DNA of 64,000 bases from Gammaproteobacteria bacterium. GTDB taxonomy: Bacteria; Pseudomonadota; Gammaproteobacteria; Xanthomonadales; SZUA-36. Where the stretch lies: the NCBI GenBank assembly GCA_030431095.1, contig JAUIJU010000016.1:1-64000 (forward strand). The letters are read 5' to 3'. Position 1 is the stretch's first letter. Each line of letters starts with the position of its first letter. The notes below the pieces were generated by a model. It saw only the letters and a list, made by a program, of their open reading frames with translations, was not told the DNA's origin and searched no databases. Below, in pieces: positions 47,851-61,452 of the stretch. A program made the translations under genes and the position numbers.

Positions 47851-49092
47851 TCAGTCGACCACCGGACCGGGTCCGGGCAGTTGCTCCGCGCACAAGGAAA
47901 CGTTGTCGTTCACCACCCGTGACAGGGGGATCGAACCGACGGCCTGGGCCGGGGGCAAATCGTAGTCCAGCGTGGCGCTGGCACAATCGTGGAACGTCAG
48001 TGTGAGACTGCCATAGTCGTCGTCCTGCACCTGGCCAGGGTCCCGCATGTCGAAACGTCCCCGACCGGTGTTCGAGACCGCCAGTTCCACGCTGGCCGCG
48101 CCCGCTGCAAAAGCGCCCAGGGCGGTGACCCAGCGCTGGCTGGCGTCACCCAGGGTCGCCTCGTCGGGATCGAACGGCGCCGTCACGTCGAAGGTGAACC
48201 AGGCCACGAACACCAATCCCTGCTCGGGATAGACCTCCAGCAGCAGGCCCTGGCCGGCCGTAGCCGGCTCGTACCAGGCGCCGCTGAGCCCGGCGTTGAT
48301 CGCCATGTCGCCGGGCGAAAGCAGGGTCAGGCGGACGTCGCCGGTATCGCCGGGGTGAAAGGCGGTGGCCACCACGCGGTAGTCGGTGCCGGCCTGCAGG
48401 AATACGCGGCCGGCGTCATCCAGGGTGGCAACGAGATTCCGCGCGGCATCCGCCGGGTTGAAAGCGTCGGCATAGAGCCGAACCTCCGCATCCAGGCCGG
48501 TATATAACGACACGTCGGCCAGGGCCCAATTGCCGCTGCGCGCCACCTGTAGGACGCCCAGGTTGCGGTAACGCTCGTCGCCGTCGCCAAAATCGGCCTG
48601 GGGCGCGTTCCCGCCCAGGGTCCCAACGCTCCAGGGTGGCGCGGGGAACGCCGCGTCGGAGCCGATCGCGCCCGGCCCCGACAGGGTGACCGCCCAGGCG
48701 CCGGGATCACCGGCGCACTGACGCTGCACCACCAGCTCATAGCTCGGCCCACCCTGCAGGCGTACGGTGCCGCCGCCATCGATCACCACGAGCCGGCCGG
48801 CGGCCGGCGCAGCCGGTGAGAACTCGCCCTCGTGGATCGCCATCTGTACGTCGACCGCGAGCAGCTCGCCGGCGTCGGCAAGGGCATAGTCGCCCGCCGC
48901 GGTCACAGTGAACGCCCCGGCGGATTGCCAGGCCAGCGCACCACTGTCGACACAGGCGCCCGGCAGGGCCGCCACGGTCGGTTCGTCACCGGCGAAGGCG
49001 CCGGAAAAGGTCACGTCATCGGCCAGGACGGAGCCGCCGGTCCCGCCCCGCGCCAGGAGCAACAGGCACATCATGATGGTGTAGCGGTTCAT
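47851..49092 (-). CDS. Secreted protein with two PPC-like domains and a shared C-terminal domain
   Basis: 413 aa from the ATG at 49092, 4 bases after the MFS stop. A signal peptide (ending SVLADD) precedes two beta-rich segments (~25-140 and ~160-270) of the bacterial pre-peptidase C-terminal type. The last ~150 residues (NAGLSGAWYEPATAGQGLLLEVYP ... GSIPLSRVVNDNVSLCAEQL) align over their length with the C-terminus of the protein at 61453-62646. I know no family name for it. Last gene of the 53408-47851 operon, convergent with a hydrolase. Confidence 0.8.
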   Translation of the reverse strand: MNRYTIMMCLLLLARGGTGGSVLADDVTFSGAFAGDEPTVAALPGACVDSGALAWQSAGAFTVTAAGDYALADAGELLAVDVQMAIHEGEFSPAAPAAGRLVVIDGGGTVRLQGGPSYELVVQRQCAGDPGAWAVTLSGPGAIGSDAAFPAPPWSVGTLGGNAPQADFGDGDERYRNLGVLQVARSGNWALADVSLYTGLDAEVRLYADAFNPADAARNLVATLDDAGRVFLQAGTDYRVVATAFHPGDTGDVRLTLLSPGDMAINAGLSGAWYEPATAGQGLLLEVYPEQGLVFVAWFTFDVTAPFDPDEATLGDASQRWVTALGAFAAGAASVELAVSNTGRGRFDMRDPGQVQDDDYGSLTLTFHDCASATLDYDLPPAQAVGSIPLSRVVNDNVSLCAEQLPGPGPVVD

Positions 49093-49096
49093 GGCC

Positions 49097-50287
49097 TTAC
49101 GGTACCGCATCCTCACCTGCCAGCGCCGCCACCCCCGTTTTCATCCGCGCGGCATCCTGCCGCCGGGCCGGCACCAGCGTGGCCGCCAGGCACAGCACCA
49201 GCGCGAGCACCGAGGCCCAGATGATCAGCGCGTACTGGTCCTCGCCCAGCAAGACGGCGAATACCGCCGGTCCCGAAGCCAGGCCCATCTTGGACGCGAA
49301 CCCGGCCATGGCTGCCATCTGGCCATGGCGGTCGAAACGCGAGGCCAGGCCCAGCAGGTAAGGAATGGTGAATGCCCAGGTCACGCCGATCGCAAAATTG
49401 GCCGCGATCCAAACCCAGGGCAGATCGCTGAACAGGTAGGCCCAACAGCCCACCGCCGTCACCCCGATGCCCAGAACCAAGGGGCGCGTGTAGCCCATGC
49501 GGTCGGAAACCACGATGACCAGGCCCGCGCCGGCCAGGCCGATCCAGGCGGCGATGCCCAGGGTGCGGGTGATGAAGGACGGCTGCAGGCCGTAGTGCTC
49601 GCCCAGCCCGATAATAAAGGCGTAGAGTCCCATGTTGGCGCCCTGAAACAGGAAAATCGCCAGCAGCACCAGCACCAGCGGTGCGCTCCAGCAAGCGGCG
49701 CTGAACAACGAGGGCGGCCGCCCGCCCCTGACGGCATAGTCGGGAATGAACGCCAGCATGGCCAGCGTCACGAGACTGAATGCCACCAGCGACAGAAACA
49801 GGACTGAAGTGCCCAGCGTGGGCACCAGGCCCGGAATGAGCATCACGCCCAGCCCGCCCAGGCCGAACTGCACGAACAGCAATACGCCAAAGGTGCGGTC
49901 CGGTTCCACGGTGCGTGCGATCACGGAGAAGGCCGTACCGACCAGCATGCCGCCGACGAATCCGTGACCGAAACGAACCGCCGTCAGCACCGAGGGGCTG
50001 GAAATCGACAGCGAGGCCAGGTCCACAGCGATCAGGGCCAACAGGAATCCCAATGCCGCCCTGCGCCAGGCCAGGTGACGCACCAGGAACACGATCAGCA
50101 GGGCGCCGAATGCAGCACCGTACATGTTGGCGCTGGCCACCGCACCGGCCTGTCGATTGCTGAAGCCCAGCGCCTGGATCAATCCGTCCACGATGGCCGG
50201 CATGATGTTGACGTAGAACAGGCCCGCCGTCGCCAGGAAGGCGAGGAAGACGCGGGCGGTCATGCCGCCGGGAGAAACGGTTGTCAT
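49097..50287 (-). CDS. Major facilitator superfamily transporter
   Basis: 396 aa, ATG overlapping the hydrolase stop (ATGA). Twelve helices; the first loop has SVLTAVRFGHGFVGG, and TM regions such as IMPAIVDGLIQALGFSNRQAGAVASAN are typical of the MFS drug/sugar porters. Substrate unknown. Its coupling to a serine hydrolase and a sulfotransferase suggests import or export of the molecule they act on. Confidence 0.88.
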   Translation of the reverse strand: MTTVSPGGMTARVFLAFLATAGLFYVNIMPAIVDGLIQALGFSNRQAGAVASANMYGAAFGALLIVFLVRHLAWRRAALGFLLALIAVDLASLSISSPSVLTAVRFGHGFVGGMLVGTAFSVIARTVEPDRTFGVLLFVQFGLGGLGVMLIPGLVPTLGTSVLFLSLVAFSLVTLAMLAFIPDYAVRGGRPPSLFSAACWSAPLVLVLLAIFLFQGANMGLYAFIIGLGEHYGLQPSFITRTLGIAAWIGLAGAGLVIVVSDRMGYTRPLVLGIGVTAVGCWAYLFSDLPWVWIAANFAIGVTWAFTIPYLLGLASRFDRHGQMAAMAGFASKMGLASGPAVFAVLLGEDQYALIIWASVLALVLCLAATLVPARRQDAARMKTGVAALAGEDAVP

Positions 50288-51990
50288 GAGGATCCTCTTG
50301 TGCCGCACAGGTCGCTGACGCGGCCCAGTTCGATGACGGCGTCCATCCAGCTGCCGTGACCGCCGTCGGTGAAAAACCAGTAAACCGCCCCACCGGGCGG
50401 CAGCGCCCAGCGAATACCGCCGTAGCCGGACATGAACGGGACCCAGGCCGGCGCTTCACAGCCTGCATGGGGCGCAATGTCGAAGCCCCAGAATCCGGCG
50501 TAGTATCCCTCGCCGCGCGACAGGGCCCATTGCTGCATGCCCGAGCGGTCACGAAAACGCAGGCCGGCCAGGTCATCTTTCGCCACCAGCGCCCCCAGTG
50601 CGGCGTCGTTCTGCAACCAGGCGCCGATGCGCGCCACGTCGTCGGGGTGGTAGTACAGGCCATAGGCCACGAAGGGCTGAGCGGCTTCGTCGTAAGTGCG
50701 CTGGGTATGGTCCAGCAGCGGACCTGGATTCACGGGACCCAGGATGTCCCGGGCCAGGATGTCGCGGTGAATGTCGGCTGAAGCGCCCAGGAGGTCCTTC
50801 AGGAATCGATTCAGCGCCACGCCCAACAGGTAGTCGTCGGTGCTGTGATAAACCGGCGCCGTCCCGGGCGCGGCGTGCCGGGGCCAGGCTTCGCAGGCAA
50901 AACGGAGTTTCCCGGCATTGCCCGTGGCCAGGAAGAACGGCTGCATCTTCTCCGCCGATTCGTCGGCGTGAAACTCGGTGGAATCGAAGTTTCCCGTGGT
51001 CATGTCCACCAGGTGACGCAGGCGTACGCCCTTCCAGCGTCCGTCAGGCAGGTCGCACTCGGGCACCAGGTCAGGCACCTCGACGGCCTCCAGTTCAGGC
51101 CAGCGTTTCACCATGTTGAGGAAAACCAGCCCGGCAAAAAGGCTCTTGGCCGTGGAATAGGACGGCAACGCGACCAGTTCACAGTAGGGGTGTGGTCCCT
51201 GCCGCGTGGGACAATCGCTGCGGTAGTGCACACCATCCAGAACCACGCCCCAGGCGGTGGCGTCGTCCGATGCGGGCGGGGCCAGGGCGGCCAGGTCCAG
51301 GTCCGGATCGATCTCCAGCAGGGCCTCCAGGGGTCGCACCGGCAGGCGCGCCGCACGCTCGGCGACATGATCCGCCACCAGGCGCCGGGCCGACTCGAGC
51401 GGCCGACGCTCGAAACGCGCGCTGCTTCGACCCCAGGCGTCGAACTTCAGGTACTGGCAGGTTTCACTGGCCACTTGCCATTCCAGGCCGGAGACTATGC
51501 CCTGCGCCGAAAGGCCGAACCGCAACAGACCATTGTGCAGGCAGTTCTGGTTCGACTCCTTGAGCGAGAAGGGCAGCGACACGCGCGTCCATTCGGGGCG
51601 GGCCGGATCAGCCCAGACGCGACCGGGCTCGACAAGCACTTCCCAGTAGGGGTGATCCACCGCGCGTGGACCCCGGCGTGCCGGCACCACCCAGGACCCG
51701 TCACTGACCAGGTCCAGAGTCAGCGGCGGCAGGGACGATATCGCCCAACGCGTATCACCGCTCAGCGCGAAATGGTCCACCCGTGTCTCGAAACCGGCCG
51801 CCGGTCCACCCTCGATGGTCAGGCGGCCCTCGAGCGGAAACGGTGGCGGAGCCCAATCGGTCGGGGGTGCGAAACGGGCTGTCGGCCACGGACCGTCGGT
51901 GGCCGGCGACGGGACCGGCGTCGCCACCGGGACGGGACGGGTACAGGCCGCCAGCACGCCAAACGCAGTCGCCAGGATCACGCGCGCCAT
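50284..51990 (-). CDS. Serine hydrolase lipoprotein, copy 2
   Basis: 568 aa from the ATG at 51990, which overlaps the preceding TGA by one base. The lipobox is LAAC (Cys16), so the protein is membrane anchored. It has the same two-part build as the gene at 46119-47843: an unassigned N-terminal domain (HPYWEVLVEPG, KESNQNCLHNGLL), then Ser279-Thr-Ala-Lys282 (PSYSTAKSLFAG), YHSTDDY and FMSGYGG. The third motif lacks the His of copy 1. The substrate could be a peptide or ester; antibiotic resistance cannot be claimed. Confidence 0.87.
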   Translation of the reverse strand: MARVILATAFGVLAACTRPVPVATPVPSPATDGPWPTARFAPPTDWAPPPFPLEGRLTIEGGPAAGFETRVDHFALSGDTRWAISSLPPLTLDLVSDGSWVVPARRGPRAVDHPYWEVLVEPGRVWADPARPEWTRVSLPFSLKESNQNCLHNGLLRFGLSAQGIVSGLEWQVASETCQYLKFDAWGRSSARFERRPLESARRLVADHVAERAARLPVRPLEALLEIDPDLDLAALAPPASDDATAWGVVLDGVHYRSDCPTRQGPHPYCELVALPSYSTAKSLFAGLVFLNMVKRWPELEAVEVPDLVPECDLPDGRWKGVRLRHLVDMTTGNFDSTEFHADESAEKMQPFFLATGNAGKLRFACEAWPRHAAPGTAPVYHSTDDYLLGVALNRFLKDLLGASADIHRDILARDILGPVNPGPLLDHTQRTYDEAAQPFVAYGLYYHPDDVARIGAWLQNDAALGALVAKDDLAGLRFRDRSGMQQWALSRGEGYYAGFWGFDIAPHAGCEAPAWVPFMSGYGGIRWALPPGGAVYWFFTDGGHGSWMDAVIELGRVSDLCGTRGSS

Positions 51991-53408
51991 CACAGTGGTA
52001 CGCCGCCTTCCCGTAATTTACCGGCCAGCGGCGCCAATTGCCGTTCGTAGCAACGCCAGCGACCCACCGAGCTTCGGTACACCGGCCGACGCACCTGGGC
52101 CGCGCTGGCGGTGGCGGCCGGGGTGTCGCGGCGCTCGGGCGCCAGGCAGGCCGGGTCCCAGTCCAGGCCGGTGAAATCCAGCATGCGGCGCACCTGGGTT
52201 TCCGGGTCGTCCACCAGGGCCTCGTAGTCCACGTCCAGGAAAAAGCCGCCCAGGTTTCGCCGCCAGTGCCCCATCAGTCGGTGGTAGGCCAGGTAGTAGC
52301 GGCCCACGTCCTGCAGGCTGTAGCTGAAGGGATAGCCCATGCGAAACAGGGTTTTGTAGATGGCGTAACAACTGTCCAGCGGATGGCGGCGCAGGTGAAC
52401 GACCTTCGCGCCCGGCAAGGCGCGCCGCAGCAGGCCAAGGTAGAGAAAGTTCAGCGGCGTCTTGTCGATCAGCCAGGGCGCATCCACACCGTGGGCACGG
52501 GTACCGCGCAGATAGGCCGCGCCCAGCGTGACCGGGTCGATGTGTGCGGCCCGGGTTACCAGGGTCGTCCTGTCGCCCTCGCCCGCCAGGCGGGTGACGG
52601 CCATCGCCAGTGTGCTGACTTCACCCAGGCTGGCCACCGAATCGTGGCCGGACAGCATGCGGTCGGTCAGCGTGGTGCCGCTGCGAGGCAGCCCCAGGAT
52701 GAACAGCGGCCCCGATTCAGCCGGTGCGGCCGAGCCGGCCAGCCAGTCGGCGTCGAACACGTCGGCCAGTCGGGCCAGGGTGGCCACGTCGGCGCCGACA
52801 TCGTAGTCCAGGCGACGGCGGCGAGCCGCGGCGCCGCGTTGCAGCCAGGCGAAGGCGGCCTCGTGACGCCCCAGATCTTCCAGTTCCTTCGCCAGCGCGT
52901 AACACACCGGTGCGCGACCGGGATGATCCGACGGCAGGCTGGCGGCCAGACGGCCCAGCTCGTCCACGTGGTTGCGCTCCTCGCTCCAGGTCCGCAGGGT
53001 CGAGCGGTTCTGCCAGGCGTCGTGGTCGTCGGGATCGAGTGCAATCACGCGCTCGAACAGCCGTTCGGCTTCGTCGATATCGCCCACCGCCACCGCGCTG
53101 GAGGCGGCGTTGTAGGCCAGCCGCGAGTCGCCCGGCCGCAGGGCCAGGGCCGCCAGGTGGCAGCGATGGGCAGCCTCGAAACGGCTGCAGGCCGTGTGAA
53201 AACCACCGACGCGGGCCAGGGACAGGGGGTCCTGGCCGGCCTGGGCCTCGAGTTCATCGCCCGCCTCACGCGCCTGTGCGACCTCGCCGGCCTGCAGCAG
53301 ACACTCGGCCAGGCGCAGCCCGGCGTCGAATCGCTGCGGACCGTTCCCTGCCCGCGACACGGCCTCGCGGGCCGCCTGCAGGGATTCCTCGGTGGGGTCG
53401 TGCGTCAT
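51990..53408 (-). CDS. TPR-containing sulfotransferase family protein
   Basis: 472 aa. Residues ~1-200 are TPR repeats (LHRCHLAALALRPGDSRLAYNAASS-type units). The C-terminal half is a sulfotransferase with PAPS loop FILGLPRSGTTLTDRML and VVHLRRHPLDSCYAIY as the 3'-phosphate site. TPR-sulfotransferases resembling tyrosylprotein sulfotransferases are common beside TonB-dependent receptors in some proteobacteria, as here. The acceptor is unknown. First gene of a four-gene operon with overlapping starts. Confidence 0.9.
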   Translation of the reverse strand: MTHDPTEESLQAAREAVSRAGNGPQRFDAGLRLAECLLQAGEVAQAREAGDELEAQAGQDPLSLARVGGFHTACSRFEAAHRCHLAALALRPGDSRLAYNAASSAVAVGDIDEAERLFERVIALDPDDHDAWQNRSTLRTWSEERNHVDELGRLAASLPSDHPGRAPVCYALAKELEDLGRHEAAFAWLQRGAAARRRRLDYDVGADVATLARLADVFDADWLAGSAAPAESGPLFILGLPRSGTTLTDRMLSGHDSVASLGEVSTLAMAVTRLAGEGDRTTLVTRAAHIDPVTLGAAYLRGTRAHGVDAPWLIDKTPLNFLYLGLLRRALPGAKVVHLRRHPLDSCYAIYKTLFRMGYPFSYSLQDVGRYYLAYHRLMGHWRRNLGGFFLDVDYEALVDDPETQVRRMLDFTGLDWDPACLAPERRDTPAATASAAQVRRPVYRSSVGRWRCYERQLAPLAGKLREGGVPL

Positions 53409-53537: not shown

Positions 53538-55910
53538 TCAGAAATCGTAGGTCACGGCCACACCGACGGTGCGCGGTCGCGCGATCACCGTCTTGGCGCC
53601 GTTGCCGTAGTAGTTCTGAGAGGGGTCGGTGCCCATGTATCCCTCGGTGAACACGCCCACGCGACCCCGCTCATTGGTCAGGTTTTTCACGAACAGGCCC
53701 AGCGACCACTGGTCACCCAGGAACACCGTGGAGTTGAAGTTGAAGATCGAGAAGCTCGGCAACGTGGCCGTCAATACGCTGGTTTCGCTGACGATATTCT
53801 TGGTGTCGTCCTGGTAGTAGCCGGTCAGGCGGTTGTTCCACTCCCAACCGTTGTCGAAGGTGGCGGTGTGCTCGATCATTGCGTTGAGCGTATGCTCCGC
53901 CAGGCCGGGCAGCTCCCAGCCTTCCACGCCGGCGACGTAAACGCCGTCGGCGGACAGGAAGGTGTCGTCCAACTCGCCCTGGTTGTAGCTGTACCCCAGG
54001 TTGGCGTGCCAGCTGTCGCCGAAGAAAGTGTCCCACTCGAACTCCACGCCCTGCGTATGGGCGTCCCCGCCGTTCTGGGCCGCGTAGAAGCCCCAGTTGG
54101 TGGTCGATGTGTTGAGCTGGATGTCACGCCAGTCCACGTAGTACAGCGCCACGCTCCAGAAATTACCGCTGCCGCCACCCTTCAGGCCCAGCTCGTAGTT
54201 CTTGGTGAAATCGGGACCGTAGGTCTGCCAGGCCGGGTCTTCCGCGAACACGCCGGACAGGGGCACGGCATTGGCGCCGCCGCGGCGGAAGCCTTCCGAG
54301 TACGTGGCGTACAGCAGTTTGTCCTCACCTACGTCCCAGGAAGCATTCAGCTTCCACAGGGTGTCCTTGTCGCTGCCGCTGAACCGGGCCTCGTCGGTAA
54401 TGGCAAACGACGTGTAAAGCCCGACACCCATGAGGGTGTCGTTTTCATAGTCGTTGTCGAAGGTGCGGAACCCGCCGGTCAGGCGAAACGTGTCGCTCAA
54501 TCGCCAGGTGACCTCGCCGAAAACGGCCAGGTCTTCGAAATTTTCCTGCCGCTCGTATCGGAAGTCGTTGTCGTCCACCACGAATCCCGGGCCCCAGGCG
54601 GTGTCCGCCCAGCGCTGGAAACCGTGCAGGTAGCTGTACTGTGTGGAGAGCGCGTCCTGGTCGCGGTAAAACACGCCCACGATCCACGGGAAATCGATGT
54701 CATCGTTGGACACCAGGCGCAGTTCCTGGATGAAGGCCTCGTCCTCGAAGCTGCGATCGGCGCTGGCCAAGGGACGCGGGTAATTGTAGTAGAACGCGCC
54801 GAGCCAACCGTTCTGCGCGTAGAAGCCGGTGTTCTCGCTGACGCTGGATCCGCTGTGGTCGTAAGCCGAAGTGCTGCTGGTCAGGGTCGCGAAACCGAAG
54901 TCCACGTTCAGTTCCAGGGCCGCGGCGTCCACCTCGCGTTCGGACGGTTCGCGCTGGACGGAACCGATCTCGTATTCGCCGTACGGATCGCCCCAGCCGT
55001 CGACGCCCTCGGTGGGCTGCATGCGGCCACCCACGTCGTCTTCCTGGTGGGCGTACCACAGCAGGGCTTCGAAGGTATCGCTGGGCTGCCACAGCGCGGA
55101 CACGCGGGCATAGTCGATTTCCACCGTGTCCAGGTCCTTGACGCTCTCGTACTGCGCGGTCCCGGCCAGCACGCCGTCCGGCGCCACGGGGAGCCCCTGT
55201 CCATCCAGCACGTAGAGGTTCGGGGCGTCCACGATGCCGTCGTAGTCGATGGTGCCCACCAGGGCACGGACCGCGAATGTGTCGCCGATCGGGAAGTTGA
55301 GCACGGCATCGCCGTCCCAGTTGCTGCCGTCGGAGCCGTCGGTCTGGCTGTAGGACGCCTCCAGGCGGCCCTCGAACTCACCCAGCACCGGTTTGCGGGT
55401 GATGTAGCGCACGGTGCCGCCCAGCGAGCCGGAACCATACAGGGTGCCCTGCGGACCGCGCAGGACCTCCACGCGCTCCAGGTCCTTGAGCACCATGGGG
55501 GCGTAGAGCGGGGATTCGTTGAGATAGGTGGACACCGGCGGTACGGCGGACAGGCGCACGTCCATGTTCACGTTGGAGTCGATGGCCAGGCCGCGAATGC
55601 GGATCGCGTTCACCGCGCCGGAGTTACGCGCGCCGAAATCGATGGTGGCCGCGCCGGGCACCCCCTGCAGCAGCTCCCCGGTGTCCTGGATGCGGCCCTT
55701 GTCGATGAAATCGCCGCTGATCGCGGAAATGTTGTAGGGGATTTCCACCATGGTGGTCTCCCGCCGCGTCGCGGTCACCACGATTTCCTCCACCAGCAGG
55801 TCGCCGTCCTGGTCTGCGCTGTTCTGCGCCAGAGCGGGTACGGCCAGGGAGGCCAACAGGGAGGTTGTGATGGCGGTTGACAGTGCCTTGCGTTCGAAAC
55901 TGCGTTTCAT
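53538..55910 (-). CDS. TonB-dependent outer-membrane receptor
   Basis: 790 aa. A signal peptide (~1-28) is followed by a TonB box region (EEIVVTATRRE), the plug domain (IRIRGLAIDSNVN; RVEVLRGPQGTLYGSGSLGGTVRYITRKP) and a 22-strand barrel ending in VGVAVTYDF with the C-terminal Phe needed for insertion. It imports a substrate such as an oligosaccharide, siderophore or other nutrient using TonB energy; sequence alone does not tell which. No Fur box lies upstream, so iron is not specially favoured. A 22-bp palindrome sits 18 bases before the ATG. Confidence 0.95.
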   Translation of the reverse strand: MKRSFERKALSTAITTSLLASLAVPALAQNSADQDGDLLVEEIVVTATRRETTMVEIPYNISAISGDFIDKGRIQDTGELLQGVPGAATIDFGARNSGAVNAIRIRGLAIDSNVNMDVRLSAVPPVSTYLNESPLYAPMVLKDLERVEVLRGPQGTLYGSGSLGGTVRYITRKPVLGEFEGRLEASYSQTDGSDGSNWDGDAVLNFPIGDTFAVRALVGTIDYDGIVDAPNLYVLDGQGLPVAPDGVLAGTAQYESVKDLDTVEIDYARVSALWQPSDTFEALLWYAHQEDDVGGRMQPTEGVDGWGDPYGEYEIGSVQREPSEREVDAAALELNVDFGFATLTSSTSAYDHSGSSVSENTGFYAQNGWLGAFYYNYPRPLASADRSFEDEAFIQELRLVSNDDIDFPWIVGVFYRDQDALSTQYSYLHGFQRWADTAWGPGFVVDDNDFRYERQENFEDLAVFGEVTWRLSDTFRLTGGFRTFDNDYENDTLMGVGLYTSFAITDEARFSGSDKDTLWKLNASWDVGEDKLLYATYSEGFRRGGANAVPLSGVFAEDPAWQTYGPDFTKNYELGLKGGGSGNFWSVALYYVDWRDIQLNTSTTNWGFYAAQNGGDAHTQGVEFEWDTFFGDSWHANLGYSYNQGELDDTFLSADGVYVAGVEGWELPGLAEHTLNAMIEHTATFDNGWEWNNRLTGYYQDDTKNIVSETSVLTATLPSFSIFNFNSTVFLGDQWSLGLFVKNLTNERGRVGVFTEGYMGTDPSQNYYGNGAKTVIARPRTVGVAVTYDF

Positions 55911-56049: not shown

Positions 56050-56901
56050 TCATTTGCCGCGTTGCGGGAGTTCCAGCGGACCCAGATCGGCCAGCGCGCC
56101 AGGTCCGGCGCCTTCCTGGTAGACCGGATAGTTCACCGCGGCTTCGCGGAAACTCTTCAGGGTCTGACCAAGGCCGTGCATGCCGCGCCGACGCACGCGA
56201 CGGGCGTGCTCGAAATCCAGTTCCACGGTAATCACCTCGCGGCCCACACCGGCGTTGTGAATCACGGTGCCGTCGGGACCGACCACGATGGACTGCCCGT
56301 AACCGAGCCGCCCGGCATTGTTGATGTTCACGAACCAGCACTGGTTCACCGCGGCATTGGTCCGCGCGATGGCCAGCTCGAGATCCCGGTCGATGGTATT
56401 GGTCAGGGTCGGCACGATGATGGCCTCCGCGCCCATCCAGGCGAGCTGCCGGGCCATTTCCGGGTACCACATGTCGTAGCAGATCATGAGGCCCAGGCGG
56501 CCGACTCCGGGCACGTCGAACACGGTGAAGTCGTCGCCACCGGCCACGCCGCGTTCGTAGGGCAGAAAGGGGTAGCGTTTTCGGTATCGGGCGACGACCG
56601 CACCGCTCGGGTCAAACACCGGTGCGGCGTTGTACACGGACCCGCCATCGCGCACGAAGTAGGAACCCGGCACCAGCCAGACGCCGTGGCGGCGGGCCAG
56701 ATCCGCGTAGAAGCCCTCGACATGATCCGGCGCATCAACCGCGCAATCGATGCCCGGGCCGAAGCTGCACAGTTCCGGCAGCACGACCATCTGCAGCCAG
56801 GGAAACCGCGCCATGGCCAGGTCGATTTCCTGCCCGATCCGCTCGAGATTGTCGCCGGCCGGCAGTTCCAGTTGCAGGCCGCCGATGGCCAGATGCGCCA
56901 T
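56050..56901 (-). CDS. Carbon-nitrogen hydrolase (nitrilase superfamily)
   Basis: 283 aa from the ATG at 56901, with GGAG 7 bases upstream. The catalytic triad is complete: Glu43 (VLPELCSFG), Lys108 (RYRKRYPF) and Cys141 (MICYDMWYPE). It hydrolyses an amide or nitrile in the cytoplasm; substrate not identifiable. It is between the MocR-like gene and the receptor, all on the minus strand, and may be regulated by the former. Confidence 0.92.
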   Translation of the reverse strand: MAHLAIGGLQLELPAGDNLERIGQEIDLAMARFPWLQMVVLPELCSFGPGIDCAVDAPDHVEGFYADLARRHGVWLVPGSYFVRDGGSVYNAAPVFDPSGAVVARYRKRYPFLPYERGVAGGDDFTVFDVPGVGRLGLMICYDMWYPEMARQLAWMGAEAIIVPTLTNTIDRDLELAIARTNAAVNQCWFVNINNAGRLGYGQSIVVGPDGTVIHNAGVGREVITVELDFEHARRVRRRGMHGLGQTLKSFREAAVNYPVYQEGAGPGALADLGPLELPQRGK

Positions 56902-57006: not shown

Positions 57007-58821
57007 TCAGGAGCTGCGCTCGAGAACGGCCGAATCCACCAGGCGCCCGCCCGGGCGCCACCAGCGAATCACGTTGTCATGCACGGTCACCTGATAGCGC
57101 CCTTCCTCGCCGTAGGACCAGCGCGACCACTGGCGGCAGTAGAGACCGTCCTCCACCCACCAGCGGCCCTCGTCACAGTCCTCGTCGGCGTGACCGGATC
57201 GCCCCACCATGCGGCCGTCGGGGTGCAGCTCGATGGTGCAGGGGTCGGTGTAGAAGGTGCGGTAGTGGATCAGTGACCCGGCCAGGGCCTGGCGCAGGTC
57301 GTCGCTGTCGAGCAGGCCGGGATCCGCGGGGTCGATCCGCACCAGCTGGTCGCCGGTGAGCTCGCGCACGAGTCGCTCGAGCTGGTTGACACCCTCGCGT
57401 ATGCGCTCCTCGCGAAGCGAGGTAACCCCCAGGCGGTAAAAGTTGCGCGAGCCGCCACCCCTGCCATAGTAATGAGAATCCGGCTCGATCAGGATGCCGC
57501 GGCGCGCCGCCTGGTCCACCAGCTGGTCGACGGAAACATGATCGGGGGCGCGCACCCACAGGGACGTACCACCACGCGTGGGCAGGGTGATTTCGGTTTC
57601 GCGGTGGTAGTGGTTCAGCGCCTGGCGCAGGGCGTCCCAGCGCTTGCCGAGCACCTTGTGCAGTCGGGTCAGGGCCGCATCGTAGTGCCCCAGCGACAGG
57701 AACAGCGCCGCGGTGCGCTGGGTCAGCAGGCTGGGCCGACCGACCACCATCTGCCGCAGCTTCCGTGCCTCGTGGATCAACGCCGGGGCGGCCACGATGA
57801 AGCCGATTCTGAGACCCGGGGACAGCATGCGGGGCAGACCGGAGACGTACGCCACGCGGTTTTCGCGATCCATGCCACGCAACGCCGGGTGTGGTGAGCC
57901 CAGGTAATTGTGTTCGGTGTCGAAATCGTCCTCGATGATCACCTGGTCATGACGTGCGGCCACGGCCAGCAGCGCCTCCCGGCGCGCCTTGTTCATGGTC
58001 ACCGCGGTGGGCACCTGGTGGCTGGGAGTGACGCACACCACCTGGGCCTGGGCCAGATCTTCGTCGATCACCATGCCCCCGGCGTCCACGCTCTGGTAGT
58101 GCAGTTCGGCACCGGCCTGGCGCAGCAACTGTCGCAGGCGCGGGTTACCAGGTTCCTCCACCGCGACCAGGGTGGACGCGTCAGCCAGGAGACGGGTCAG
58201 CAGGTACAGGGCGTTCTGTTCCCCCGCCGTGATGAGGATTTCGTCGGCGGAGGCGGCGATTCCGCGCCGCGGCAGCATCTTCGTGCGGATTTCCTCGATC
58301 AGCGCGGGGTCGTCCGCACTGCCTTCGTTCATGGCGCCGTCTTCCACGATACGCGTACCCAGCGCCAGGCGACTGGCCTCGCGCCATTGCGCGGTGGGGT
58401 AGAGCGAGGCGTCGAAGTAGCCCTCGATGAACGGGAACGGGTGCAGCTGCCAGTTCCGCGGTACGTGGAAACCGGGCGCCGATTGTGTGCGAAGGCGAAG
58501 CTTACGTCGCCAGCCCGCGTCCGGGGCGGCGGCGCCTTGCGGACGGTCGGTGGCCCCCACGCGGTCACGCAGGATGTTGTCGCGGACGTAAACGCCACTG
58601 CGCTCACGGGTCTCGATAAAACCTTCCCCGGTGAGCTGTTCGTAGGCCAGAACCACGGTGTTGCGCGCCACGCCCAGCTGCTGCGCCAGCTTGCGCGACG
58701 AGGGCAGCCGGCTGCCGGCGGGAAACGCGCCGCCGATGATGCCCTCGACGACCCGCTGGCGGATCTGGCTCTGCAGGCTGAGCGGGCTGTCGGGGTCCAG
58801 GTAGATCAGGGCGTTGGCCAT
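57007..58821 (-). CDS. MocR-type GntR/aminotransferase regulator lacking the PLP lysine, with extra C-terminal domain
   Basis: 604 aa from the ATG at 58821. Residues ~1-75 are a GntR winged helix (GGAFPAGSRLPSSRKLAQQLGVARNTVVLAYEQL). A fold-type-I aminotransferase domain follows (~100-480). The segment that normally holds the PLP lysine, GTFSK-x-L-x-P-x-LRLG, reads SGLPRMLSPGLRIG; the lysine position is Arg331 (codon at 57829-57831). A ~100-residue extension after ~500 (IELHPDGRMVGRSG, CDEGRWWVEDGLYC) is not part of the usual family. It may sense something other than a PLP adduct and regulate the adjacent nitrilase or the divergent oxidoreductase. Confidence 0.9.
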   Translation of the reverse strand: MANALIYLDPDSPLSLQSQIRQRVVEGIIGGAFPAGSRLPSSRKLAQQLGVARNTVVLAYEQLTGEGFIETRERSGVYVRDNILRDRVGATDRPQGAAAPDAGWRRKLRLRTQSAPGFHVPRNWQLHPFPFIEGYFDASLYPTAQWREASRLALGTRIVEDGAMNEGSADDPALIEEIRTKMLPRRGIAASADEILITAGEQNALYLLTRLLADASTLVAVEEPGNPRLRQLLRQAGAELHYQSVDAGGMVIDEDLAQAQVVCVTPSHQVPTAVTMNKARREALLAVAARHDQVIIEDDFDTEHNYLGSPHPALRGMDRENRVAYVSGLPRMLSPGLRIGFIVAAPALIHEARKLRQMVVGRPSLLTQRTAALFLSLGHYDAALTRLHKVLGKRWDALRQALNHYHRETEITLPTRGGTSLWVRAPDHVSVDQLVDQAARRGILIEPDSHYYGRGGGSRNFYRLGVTSLREERIREGVNQLERLVRELTGDQLVRIDPADPGLLDSDDLRQALAGSLIHYRTFYTDPCTIELHPDGRMVGRSGHADEDCDEGRWWVEDGLYCRQWSRWSYGEEGRYQVTVHDNVIRWWRPGGRLVDSAVLERSS

Positions 58822-60470: not shown

Positions 60471-61301
60471 TCAGCGCCCGGCAATGTTGAACCGTTCGCG
60501 CAGGAAGCGGGCGATGCCGTCTTCGTCATGGCGGCCGATCACCGCGGTGGCGGCGGCCTTGACCTCCTCGTCGGCGTTGTCGGGGGCGTAGCTCTCGTCC
60601 GCGGTGGCGAACATGCTCAGGTCGTTGTCGCTGTCGCCGAAGCACACCACGCGTTCGATGCCCAGCTGGTCACGCAGCAGGTCCACCGCACCGCCTTTAC
60701 TGGCGTCAGTGTGGTGAATGTCGATCCAGCGCCACCCGTCGCCTTCCCAGGCGGTCCCGCTGTATGCCACCAGGTGTGGTTCGCCTGCGACCAGGGTCGC
60801 AATTCGGTCAATGGCCGAGCCGGGGCCAAGGGCGCTGATGTTCGTGATCTCGGCGTCGGCGGGAAGCCTGGAAGCCGGGAATACCTGGACCTCGCGGCGA
60901 TCCACGAAGGCCCGGGCCAGGCGCGCCTCCGTGTCGTTCTGCAGTGGCGGGTGATAGATGGCGTGGTGATTGCCCGGCTCCAGGGTGAATACGAACGGTG
61001 TCACTTCCTGGGCCAGCACCGCGCTGAGCACATGTTCCACCTCGGCCAGGGTGAGATGGTTCTGGTGGGAGTAGGCGTCGTCACGCGGGTCCCAGATCAT
61101 GACGCCGTTCTTGTACACCTGGGGCAGCGCAAAACCGTGTGGCTCTAGCAAATGTCGCGCCGCATGCAACGTGCGTCCGGTGGCCACGGTGTAGGCCACG
61201 CCCTCGCGCGACAATGCAGCCAGCGTCTCGCGGGTGTAGGTGGAAAGACTGCCCTCGGCATCCAGCAGGGTGCCGTCGAGGTCAAATACGATGAGTTCCA
61301 T
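60471..61301 (-). CDS. Cof-type HAD-superfamily phosphatase
   Basis: 276 aa from the ATG at 61301; an ATG at 61334 would add 11 residues and cannot be excluded. The nucleophile motif is VFDLDGTLLD (Asp7, Asp9), TVATGR is motif II, and CFGDSDNDLSMF is motif IV. The cap (~85-190) is of the C2B type seen in Cof proteins that dephosphorylate sugar phosphates, pyridoxal phosphate or flavins. Probably a cytoplasmic housekeeping enzyme. Confidence 0.9.
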   Translation of the reverse strand: MELIVFDLDGTLLDAEGSLSTYTRETLAALSREGVAYTVATGRTLHAARHLLEPHGFALPQVYKNGVMIWDPRDDAYSHQNHLTLAEVEHVLSAVLAQEVTPFVFTLEPGNHHAIYHPPLQNDTEARLARAFVDRREVQVFPASRLPADAEITNISALGPGSAIDRIATLVAGEPHLVAYSGTAWEGDGWRWIDIHHTDASKGGAVDLLRDQLGIERVVCFGDSDNDLSMFATADESYAPDNADEEVKAAATAVIGRHDEDGIARFLRERFNIAGR

Positions 61302-61452
61302 GGGCCTGGTCGGTGTTCGGTGCGCAAGAATCATCTTACACCCGGTTCATGAACCTGCCGTTGCGCCCATCGACAACCTGATCCCGGCATCCTCGTCTAT
61401 AATTGCGGACCCCAGGCTGGGCATGCCCGCCCCTTATCAATCACTGCATCAC

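Follow-up and report, generated by a model that had tools for sequence, protein, structure and literature searches.

Can a MocR-type transcription regulator do its work once the lysine that anchors its PLP cofactor is gone? The question is raised by a gene in the window, the 64,000-nucleotide stretch of gammaproteobacterial DNA analysed here. This gene encodes a protein of MocR architecture that carries an arginine at the lysine position and an additional domain at its C-terminus. A reading made from the DNA letters alone (hereafter the sequence-only reading) had concluded that the sensing mechanism of such a protein must differ.

A MocR-type regulator with arginine at the Schiff-base position

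The regulator gene occupies positions 57007-58821 on the minus strand. Its open reading frame begins with an ATG, a start that agrees with those of its orthologues, and encodes 604 residues followed by a stop codon. The N-terminus is formed by a GntR winged helix-turn-helix (HTH; residues 17-79, 58585-58773, minus strand; Pfam PF00392, 53.4 bits). It is followed by a fold type I aminotransferase-like (AAT) domain (residues ~100-487, 57361-58524, minus strand), delimited from Pfam PF00155 and from the comparison of the predicted model with GabR. The Aminotran_1_2 match itself covers residues 170-479, and Pfam returned no match in the C-terminus. A phmmer search of solved structures retrieved PdxR of Bacillus clausii (7pq9, 4e-40) and GabR (4mgr, 1.1e-39). 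The full-length model had a mean pLDDT of 85.8, and its AAT domain superposed on GabR 6uxz_C with a Z of 34.8 and an rmsd of 2.3 over 355 residues.

GabR of Bacillus subtilis, a member of the MocR subfamily of GntR regulators, shares the GntR winged helix and the fold type I AAT domain with the window protein. The two proteins differ at the PLP site: GabR has K312, Y205 and S311 where the window protein has R331, N226 and P330 (HMMER alignment with 4mgr_A). S311 of GabR is presumably the phosphate-binding serine position of AAT. The same alignment pairs D298 with D279, F300 with Y281, and R338 with R319, and D299 is the counterpart of GabR D280. D298, D299, H268, and R338 are retained in the window protein, with Asp298 (codon 57928-57930, minus strand) standing at the position that contacts the pyridine nitrogen. 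S311 apart, the GabR residues are given the roles set out in Table 2 of PMC6917764.

The sequence-only reading had placed Arg331, encoded by CGC at 57829-57831 (minus strand), at the position of the Schiff-base lysine, and the alignment of R331 with K312 bears this out. It had also described a new C-terminal extension of ~100 residues. This extension is real and comprises residues ~490-604, past the end of the GabR match; GabR has no C-terminal barrel of the kind described below, and its downstream genes differ from those of the window. Among the features of the MocR subfamily, the window protein displays the N-terminal GntR winged helix, the fold type I aminotransferase-like domain, and the aspartate at GabR D279; it lacks the PLP-binding lysine (GabR K312) and the ring-stacking aromatic (GabR Y205). 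Hence, it is a MocR-type protein by architecture and descent, and judged by the lysine it falls outside the PLP-dependent MocR proteins, strictly defined.

The regulator gene is under purifying selection

The gene was found in four of six genomes of the same genus (its own included). All four encode arginine at the site, using the codons CGC, CGC, AGA, and CGG, which disposes of a sequencing error at the CGC codon, a doubt that the sequence-only reading had itself raised. Many of the records are metagenome-assembled, a circumstance that favours an artefact, but replacements of the lysine also occur in records not marked as such (Luminiphilus syltensis and Thalassotalea mangrovi). Whole-gene dN/dS, calculated with a Nei-Gojobori script, ranged from 0.03 to 0.14 in ten unsaturated pairs, seven of which include at least one Lys-less member; two further pairs were saturated. 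Broken down by domain across five pairs in which both members lack the lysine, dN/dS was 0.04-0.12 for the HTH, 0.04-0.11 for the AAT domain, and 0.05-0.24 for the barrel, with the top barrel value of 0.24 coming from the pair of the window protein and L054. The window regulator gene is not decaying and is under purifying selection. Given the genus-wide arginine with different codons, the open frames, and the low dN/dS, we dismiss a sequencing error or a pseudogene as extremely improbable.

The lysine has changed repeatedly in the barrel-fused family

The C-terminal domain was detected in 18 of 39 genomes of the same taxonomic family (own included), and every full-length match in these 39 genomes with at least 50% identity to the window protein was barrel-fused. 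Seventeen barrel-fused proteins from same-family genomes display lysine (11) or arginine (six) at the site. A scan of species genomes provided 86 relatives, of which the best 80 were taken as loci. An alignment of 81 rows was obtained from these by removing L058, which has an in-frame stop, and adding the window protein and L010; L024 and L025 served in it solely as outgroups. The frame of L058 (6992-8695, from a metagenome-assembled record) stops after 104 residues.

Across the 81 rows the site is occupied by lysine in 61, asparagine in eight, arginine in seven, glutamate in two, and histidine (L087), alanine, and aspartate in one each, leaving 20 Lys-less rows. Changes were counted on two quick trees, built without the lysine-site column and containing some long branches. 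The first tree demands at least 11 changes between Lys and non-Lys. The second comprises 98 rows, including 19 of the 69 control proteins described below and excluding L108, L113, and L122, and again gave 11 changes, with eight independent Lys/non-Lys pairs on well-supported branches. L025 is absent from both trees. Part of these 11 may instead reflect lysine being regained. On the first tree, arginine appears at four distinct points (L072, L117, L133, and the genus of the window), and it is also found in L134, a distant relative outside both trees. The emphasis of the sequence-only reading on arginine therefore holds for the window protein, but arginine is only one of six replacements, arising repeatedly in the family.

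Other positions of the PLP site vary as well. An aromatic residue at GabR Y205 is present in 30 of the 81 rows, arginine at R319 in 60, and aspartate at D279 in 75. All six rows without this aspartate are Lys-less; three of them, L054, L086, and L010, come from the window's genus and have asparagine where the window protein has aspartate. Counted on rows, with kinship ignored, this co-loss yields a Fisher p of 1.2e-4; we rejected it as an association, as the tree offers only three independent pairs and the signal loses significance when kinship is taken into account.

Five residues of the AAT domain (D170, R186, R356, E446, and R463) are invariant in 81/81 rows, and D299 (GabR D280) is also kept in all of them. 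We take the R463 motif to be equivalent to the carboxylate-binding Arg386 of AAT. The invariance of R463, together with that of D170, R186, R356, and E446, suggests that the AAT pocket has been remodelled yet is in use. The window protein, in which D298 and R338 are kept along with the family-wide D299, may still bind some cofactor or phosphate. In addition, three quarters of the family still carry the lysine, so most members may use PLP. Median pairwise identity within the family is highest for the HTH (62%), followed by the AAT domain (51%) and the barrel (41%).

We compared the family with other MocR/PdxR-like proteins. Searching 252 genomes of the class with the PdxR model provided 69 controls, made up of 29 returned loci and 40 places picked by hand from the list; they represent the better-scoring part of the matches and no random draw. 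The sequence-only reading had proposed an alignment with MocR paralogues; lysine is present in 69/69 controls, as opposed to 61/81 relatives. The controls also have an aromatic at Y205 (69/69), arginine at R319 (68/69), and aspartate at D279 (68/69). The controls are the more divergent set, with a median pairwise identity of 25% (46% in the barrel-fused family). Since these more divergent proteins keep the lysine and the other PLP contacts, the relaxation of the PLP site, as read from the alignments, is peculiar to the barrel-fused family in this comparison. All controls but one (68/69) reach a stop codon without an extension; the stop of the remaining one (L209, open frame of 528 aa) lies beyond the fetched DNA.

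The window regulator has lysines at residues 44, 107, 181, 278, 354, 389, and 393. Within residues 100-490 of the alignment, the Lys-less rows show no enrichment of lysine at any position. Takeover by another lysine was therefore rejected; K181, which is lysine in 81/81 rows, is equally present in those with Lys331. With arginine in place of the lysine and no substitute site showing a surplus of lysine, the chemistry forbids an internal aldimine at its normal location, and to this extent the earlier claim that the aldimine cannot form stands. Lys181 (codon 58279-58281) is in its own right a family-specific residue, found in one of the 69 controls and replaced by arginine in L134.

The C-terminal extension is a predicted lipocalin-like barrel

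The barrel was predicted alone, from 32 rows, and the model (mean pLDDT 93.4) depicts an eight-stranded lipocalin-like barrel at residues ~505-604 (57010-57309, minus strand). The best Foldseek match of this model was TP0435 (E 1.4e-3, probability 1.00), with none at E of 0.001 or below, and VIA-align matched it to lipocalin-like proteins (Z 9.4-9.5 over 87-96 residues) and to ToxS (Z 8.5). That other folds do not appear in these structure lists carries no weight as evidence. Overall, lipocalin-like bacterial barrels (4i95, 4iab, 4gzv), TP0435 (4u3q), and the periplasmic domain of ToxS (8u2f) display the same fold as the window barrel, with Z of 8.5-9.5 over 87-97 residues and sequence identities of 9-17%. 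Presumably all of these are extracytoplasmic proteins, none of them serving as a domain of a transcription factor in the cytoplasm.

Sequence searches assigned the extension to no family. Among 32 members, Pfam gave only four weak matches, each in 1/32 members (best E 0.011); a profile search of the PDB with the extension gave nothing up to E 5; and for four whole proteins, the best stretches of the NCBIfam families listed (25 per protein) stop short of the extension. Based on the fold of the model, the extension is predicted with high confidence to be a lipocalin-like barrel, a match of fold and not of family, and we consider it potentially ligand-binding.

The extension is complete in 77 of the 81 relatives; three of the remaining four run off the contig end, and L131 lacks it. 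It was gained once: the 77 rows form a clade (SH-aLRT 99), and the nearest proteins without the extension have the lysine. Residues G540, G552, W554, R563, W565, and W568 are invariant in 77/77 barrel rows. The missing lysine and the new domain are not tied to each other, because the extension was gained once, ahead of the losses. A link between the extension and the loss of lysine or the arginine was accordingly rejected, as lysine is kept in 59 of the 77 barrel-complete rows.

The barrel profile was found in other architectures in four of 274 genomes, in two single-domain proteins and two class III cyclase proteins. The former (L136, 1372-1872, and L137, 1330-1833) are ~167-aa proteins that match with E of 1.1e-8 and 8.7e-8, respectively; by eye they have a signal-like start, and they gave no Pfam family above the cut-off. 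The latter (L138, 319-1821, and L139, 172-1827) are class III cyclase-like (PF00211) with the match in the C-terminal region, where two tandem copies of the barrel can be seen by eye. These cyclase-like proteins are a second setting of the barrel domain.

The regulator stays with a conserved operon

In the window, the regulator is the first of a series of genes on the minus strand; the intervening stretches measure 105, 139, and 129 bases, after which the genes overlap. The second gene encodes a CN_hydrolase, an amidase of the nitrilase superfamily (56050-56901; PF00795). It is followed by genes encoding a TonB-dependent receptor (53538-55910; Pfam), a protein with TPR and Sulfotransfer_3 domains (51990-53408; PF13469), a beta-lactamase-family serine hydrolase with an extra N-terminal part (50284-51993; PF00144, 30.7 bits with a cut-off of 27), and an MFS transporter (49097-50308; PF07690). 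A 421-aa protein overlapping the MFS gene (47851-49116, minus strand; no Pfam match at E 0.01) lies outside the conserved core.

We searched 80 loci by tblastn with the proteins of the window. In 73 of the 80 loci, and in 70 of the 72 with room for it, the CN_hydrolase follows the regulator downstream in the same orientation. The TonB receptor was matched in 69 loci, in 67 of them downstream in the same orientation; the corresponding figures are 62 and 60 for the sulfotransferase, 53 and 41 for the beta-lactamase-family hydrolase, and 30 and 19 for the MFS transporter. The 421-aa protein was matched in a single locus, there upstream on the opposite strand. L118 and L131 have room, yet lack the CN_hydrolase, the TonB receptor, and the sulfotransferase. 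Among the 18 Lys-less rows within the 80 loci, both the CN_hydrolase and the TonB receptor are downstream in 16, whereas L108 and L113, the remaining two, break off within the gene. Therefore, the regulator stays with its operon, lysine or not. In L134/L210, from another family of the class, the six genes occur in the same order, and the regulator has arginine at K312, alanine at D280, and cysteine at H248.

Judging from the names of the families, the operon would take up and hydrolyse an amide- or peptide-like compound. Our literature search found no published work on this operon. The upstream DNA of four genus members gave no convincing alignment, so no operator was found there. Upstream of the regulator in the window is a divergent di-haem oxidoreductase-like gene (PF06537, 58971-60446, plus strand); this neighbour is not conserved in L054, where a relative of window ORF 60471-61334 is directly upstream of the regulator. 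ARAGORN called a tRNA-Lys at 53769-53857 (plus strand), within the TonB receptor gene and antisense to it, which is probably a false match.

How a regulator without the anchor may work

We consider it slightly better than an even bet that the window protein regulates its operon, its own gene included, without needing a covalent PLP anchor, and that its ligand sensing is non-covalent, involving the barrel, the remodelled AAT pocket, or both. The protein would descend from a PLP-dependent MocR regulator that acquired a lipocalin-like barrel at its C-terminus on one occasion. After this fusion the covalent anchor would have become dispensable and been lost repeatedly, leaving arginine in the window's genus, while the DNA-binding domain and a probably dimerising aminotransferase-like domain would have been retained. 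As the product of the first gene, the regulator would probably control itself together with the conserved uptake-and-hydrolysis operon. The signal would probably be a carboxylate of amide or peptide origin that the operon produces or brings into the cell. The barrel, the remodelled aminotransferase pocket, or both would accommodate it non-covalently, and its binding would alter the hold of the dimer on the operon promoter. PLP would presumably be absent from the window protein. Weighing against this reading are the lysine kept by most of the family, the retained D298, D299, and R338, the non-significant co-loss of D279, the match of the barrel to a fold and not a family, its place as the least conserved domain with the highest dN/dS in the window/L054 pair, and the lack of an operator in the upstream DNA of the four genus members.

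An engineered counterpart of this natural loss is EnuR Lys302His of Ruegeria pomeroyi; L087 naturally has histidine at the site. According to PMC8739950, each of the 278 EnuR proteins surveyed in that work keeps Lys302, the Lys302His protein incorporates no PLP and behaves as a constitutive repressor, and EnuR is described with DNA-binding and aminotransferase domains only, to which the window protein adds the barrel. Because the EnuR mutant is a constitutive repressor, a plain loss of the lysine would be expected to be costly; its recurrent loss under purifying selection argues that the barrel-fused family does not need the anchor. A broader reading, which we hold tentatively and at somewhat below an even chance, is that the family is leaving the cofactor: a single barrel fusion would have been followed by PLP independence in many lineages (at least 11 anchor changes, some possibly regains), with sensing moved to the barrel and the AAT domain turned into a dimerising pseudo-enzyme.

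Other explanations assign a different fate to the cofactor or to the response. The arginine protein might, with no internal aldimine, still bind PLP, PMP, or an adduct of PLP with an amino acid, the resulting complex being what it senses. Lys-to-Arg mutants of aspartate aminotransferase hold PLP, and the window protein, besides keeping D298, D299, H268, and R338, preserves a positive charge at the site. Against this, the ring-stacking Tyr205 and S311 have given way to Asn226 and Pro330, D279 is replaced by asparagine in three relatives of the same genus, and the Asn, Glu, Asp, Ala, and His found elsewhere in the family are no mimics of lysine; EnuR Lys302His, without PLP according to PMC8739950, points the same way. 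We judge such non-covalent use of the cofactor rather unlikely. If instead the protein bound DNA without responding, with other factors setting the operon, it would resemble the constitutive EnuR mutant, and the HTH is indeed the most conserved domain. Such a non-inducible repressor is improbable, however, given purifying selection on the AAT domain and the barrel in the five Lys-less pairs, the invariant D170, R186, R356, E446, and R463, and the recurrence of lysine loss with the operon intact.

The lysine could also serve a purpose unrelated to PLP even in the members that have it, the whole family being PLP-free and the site drifting. This would fit the 61 Lys-bearing rows insofar as 33 have lost the stacking aromatic and 19 have lost R319, but all 61 keep both the aspartate at D279 and the histidine at H248, which looks like a site in use, and we regard this explanation as quite improbable. 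The claim of the sequence-only reading that the sensing mechanism must differ is thus a good inference, though unproven, non-covalent binding of PLP or PMP and a non-inducible repressor being its alternatives. The dispensable anchor, with a ligand read non-covalently, is the reading that we retain.

Naming and significance

The NCBIfam model NF052282 names the window protein PdxR (336 bits, cut-off 320), and three relatives tested (the Lys-bearing Colwellia protein L076, L097, and L111) also pass its cut-off. Compared with PdxR, the window protein lacks the Schiff-base lysine and has an added barrel; by Pfam, the five downstream genes of the window operon that can be placed in a family include no vitamin B6 gene. 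The name is probably wrong, an automatic misnaming. Accounts of the subfamily include the Bramucci 2011 survey and a 2018 MocR review, as cited in PMC6522883. Among the matches listed in our literature search, made on titles and the starts of abstracts, we found no report of a natural MocR without the lysine or with a barrel, which is no proof of absence from print.

As the window protein demonstrates, automatic naming as PdxR can be wrong. Meanwhile, close sisters with and without the lysine (L071 and L072; the Thalassotalea proteins L112 and L111, the latter with asparagine) constitute matched pairs in which one can ask whether a MocR regulator needs PLP, and these same pairs also allow the contribution of the fused barrel to be asked.
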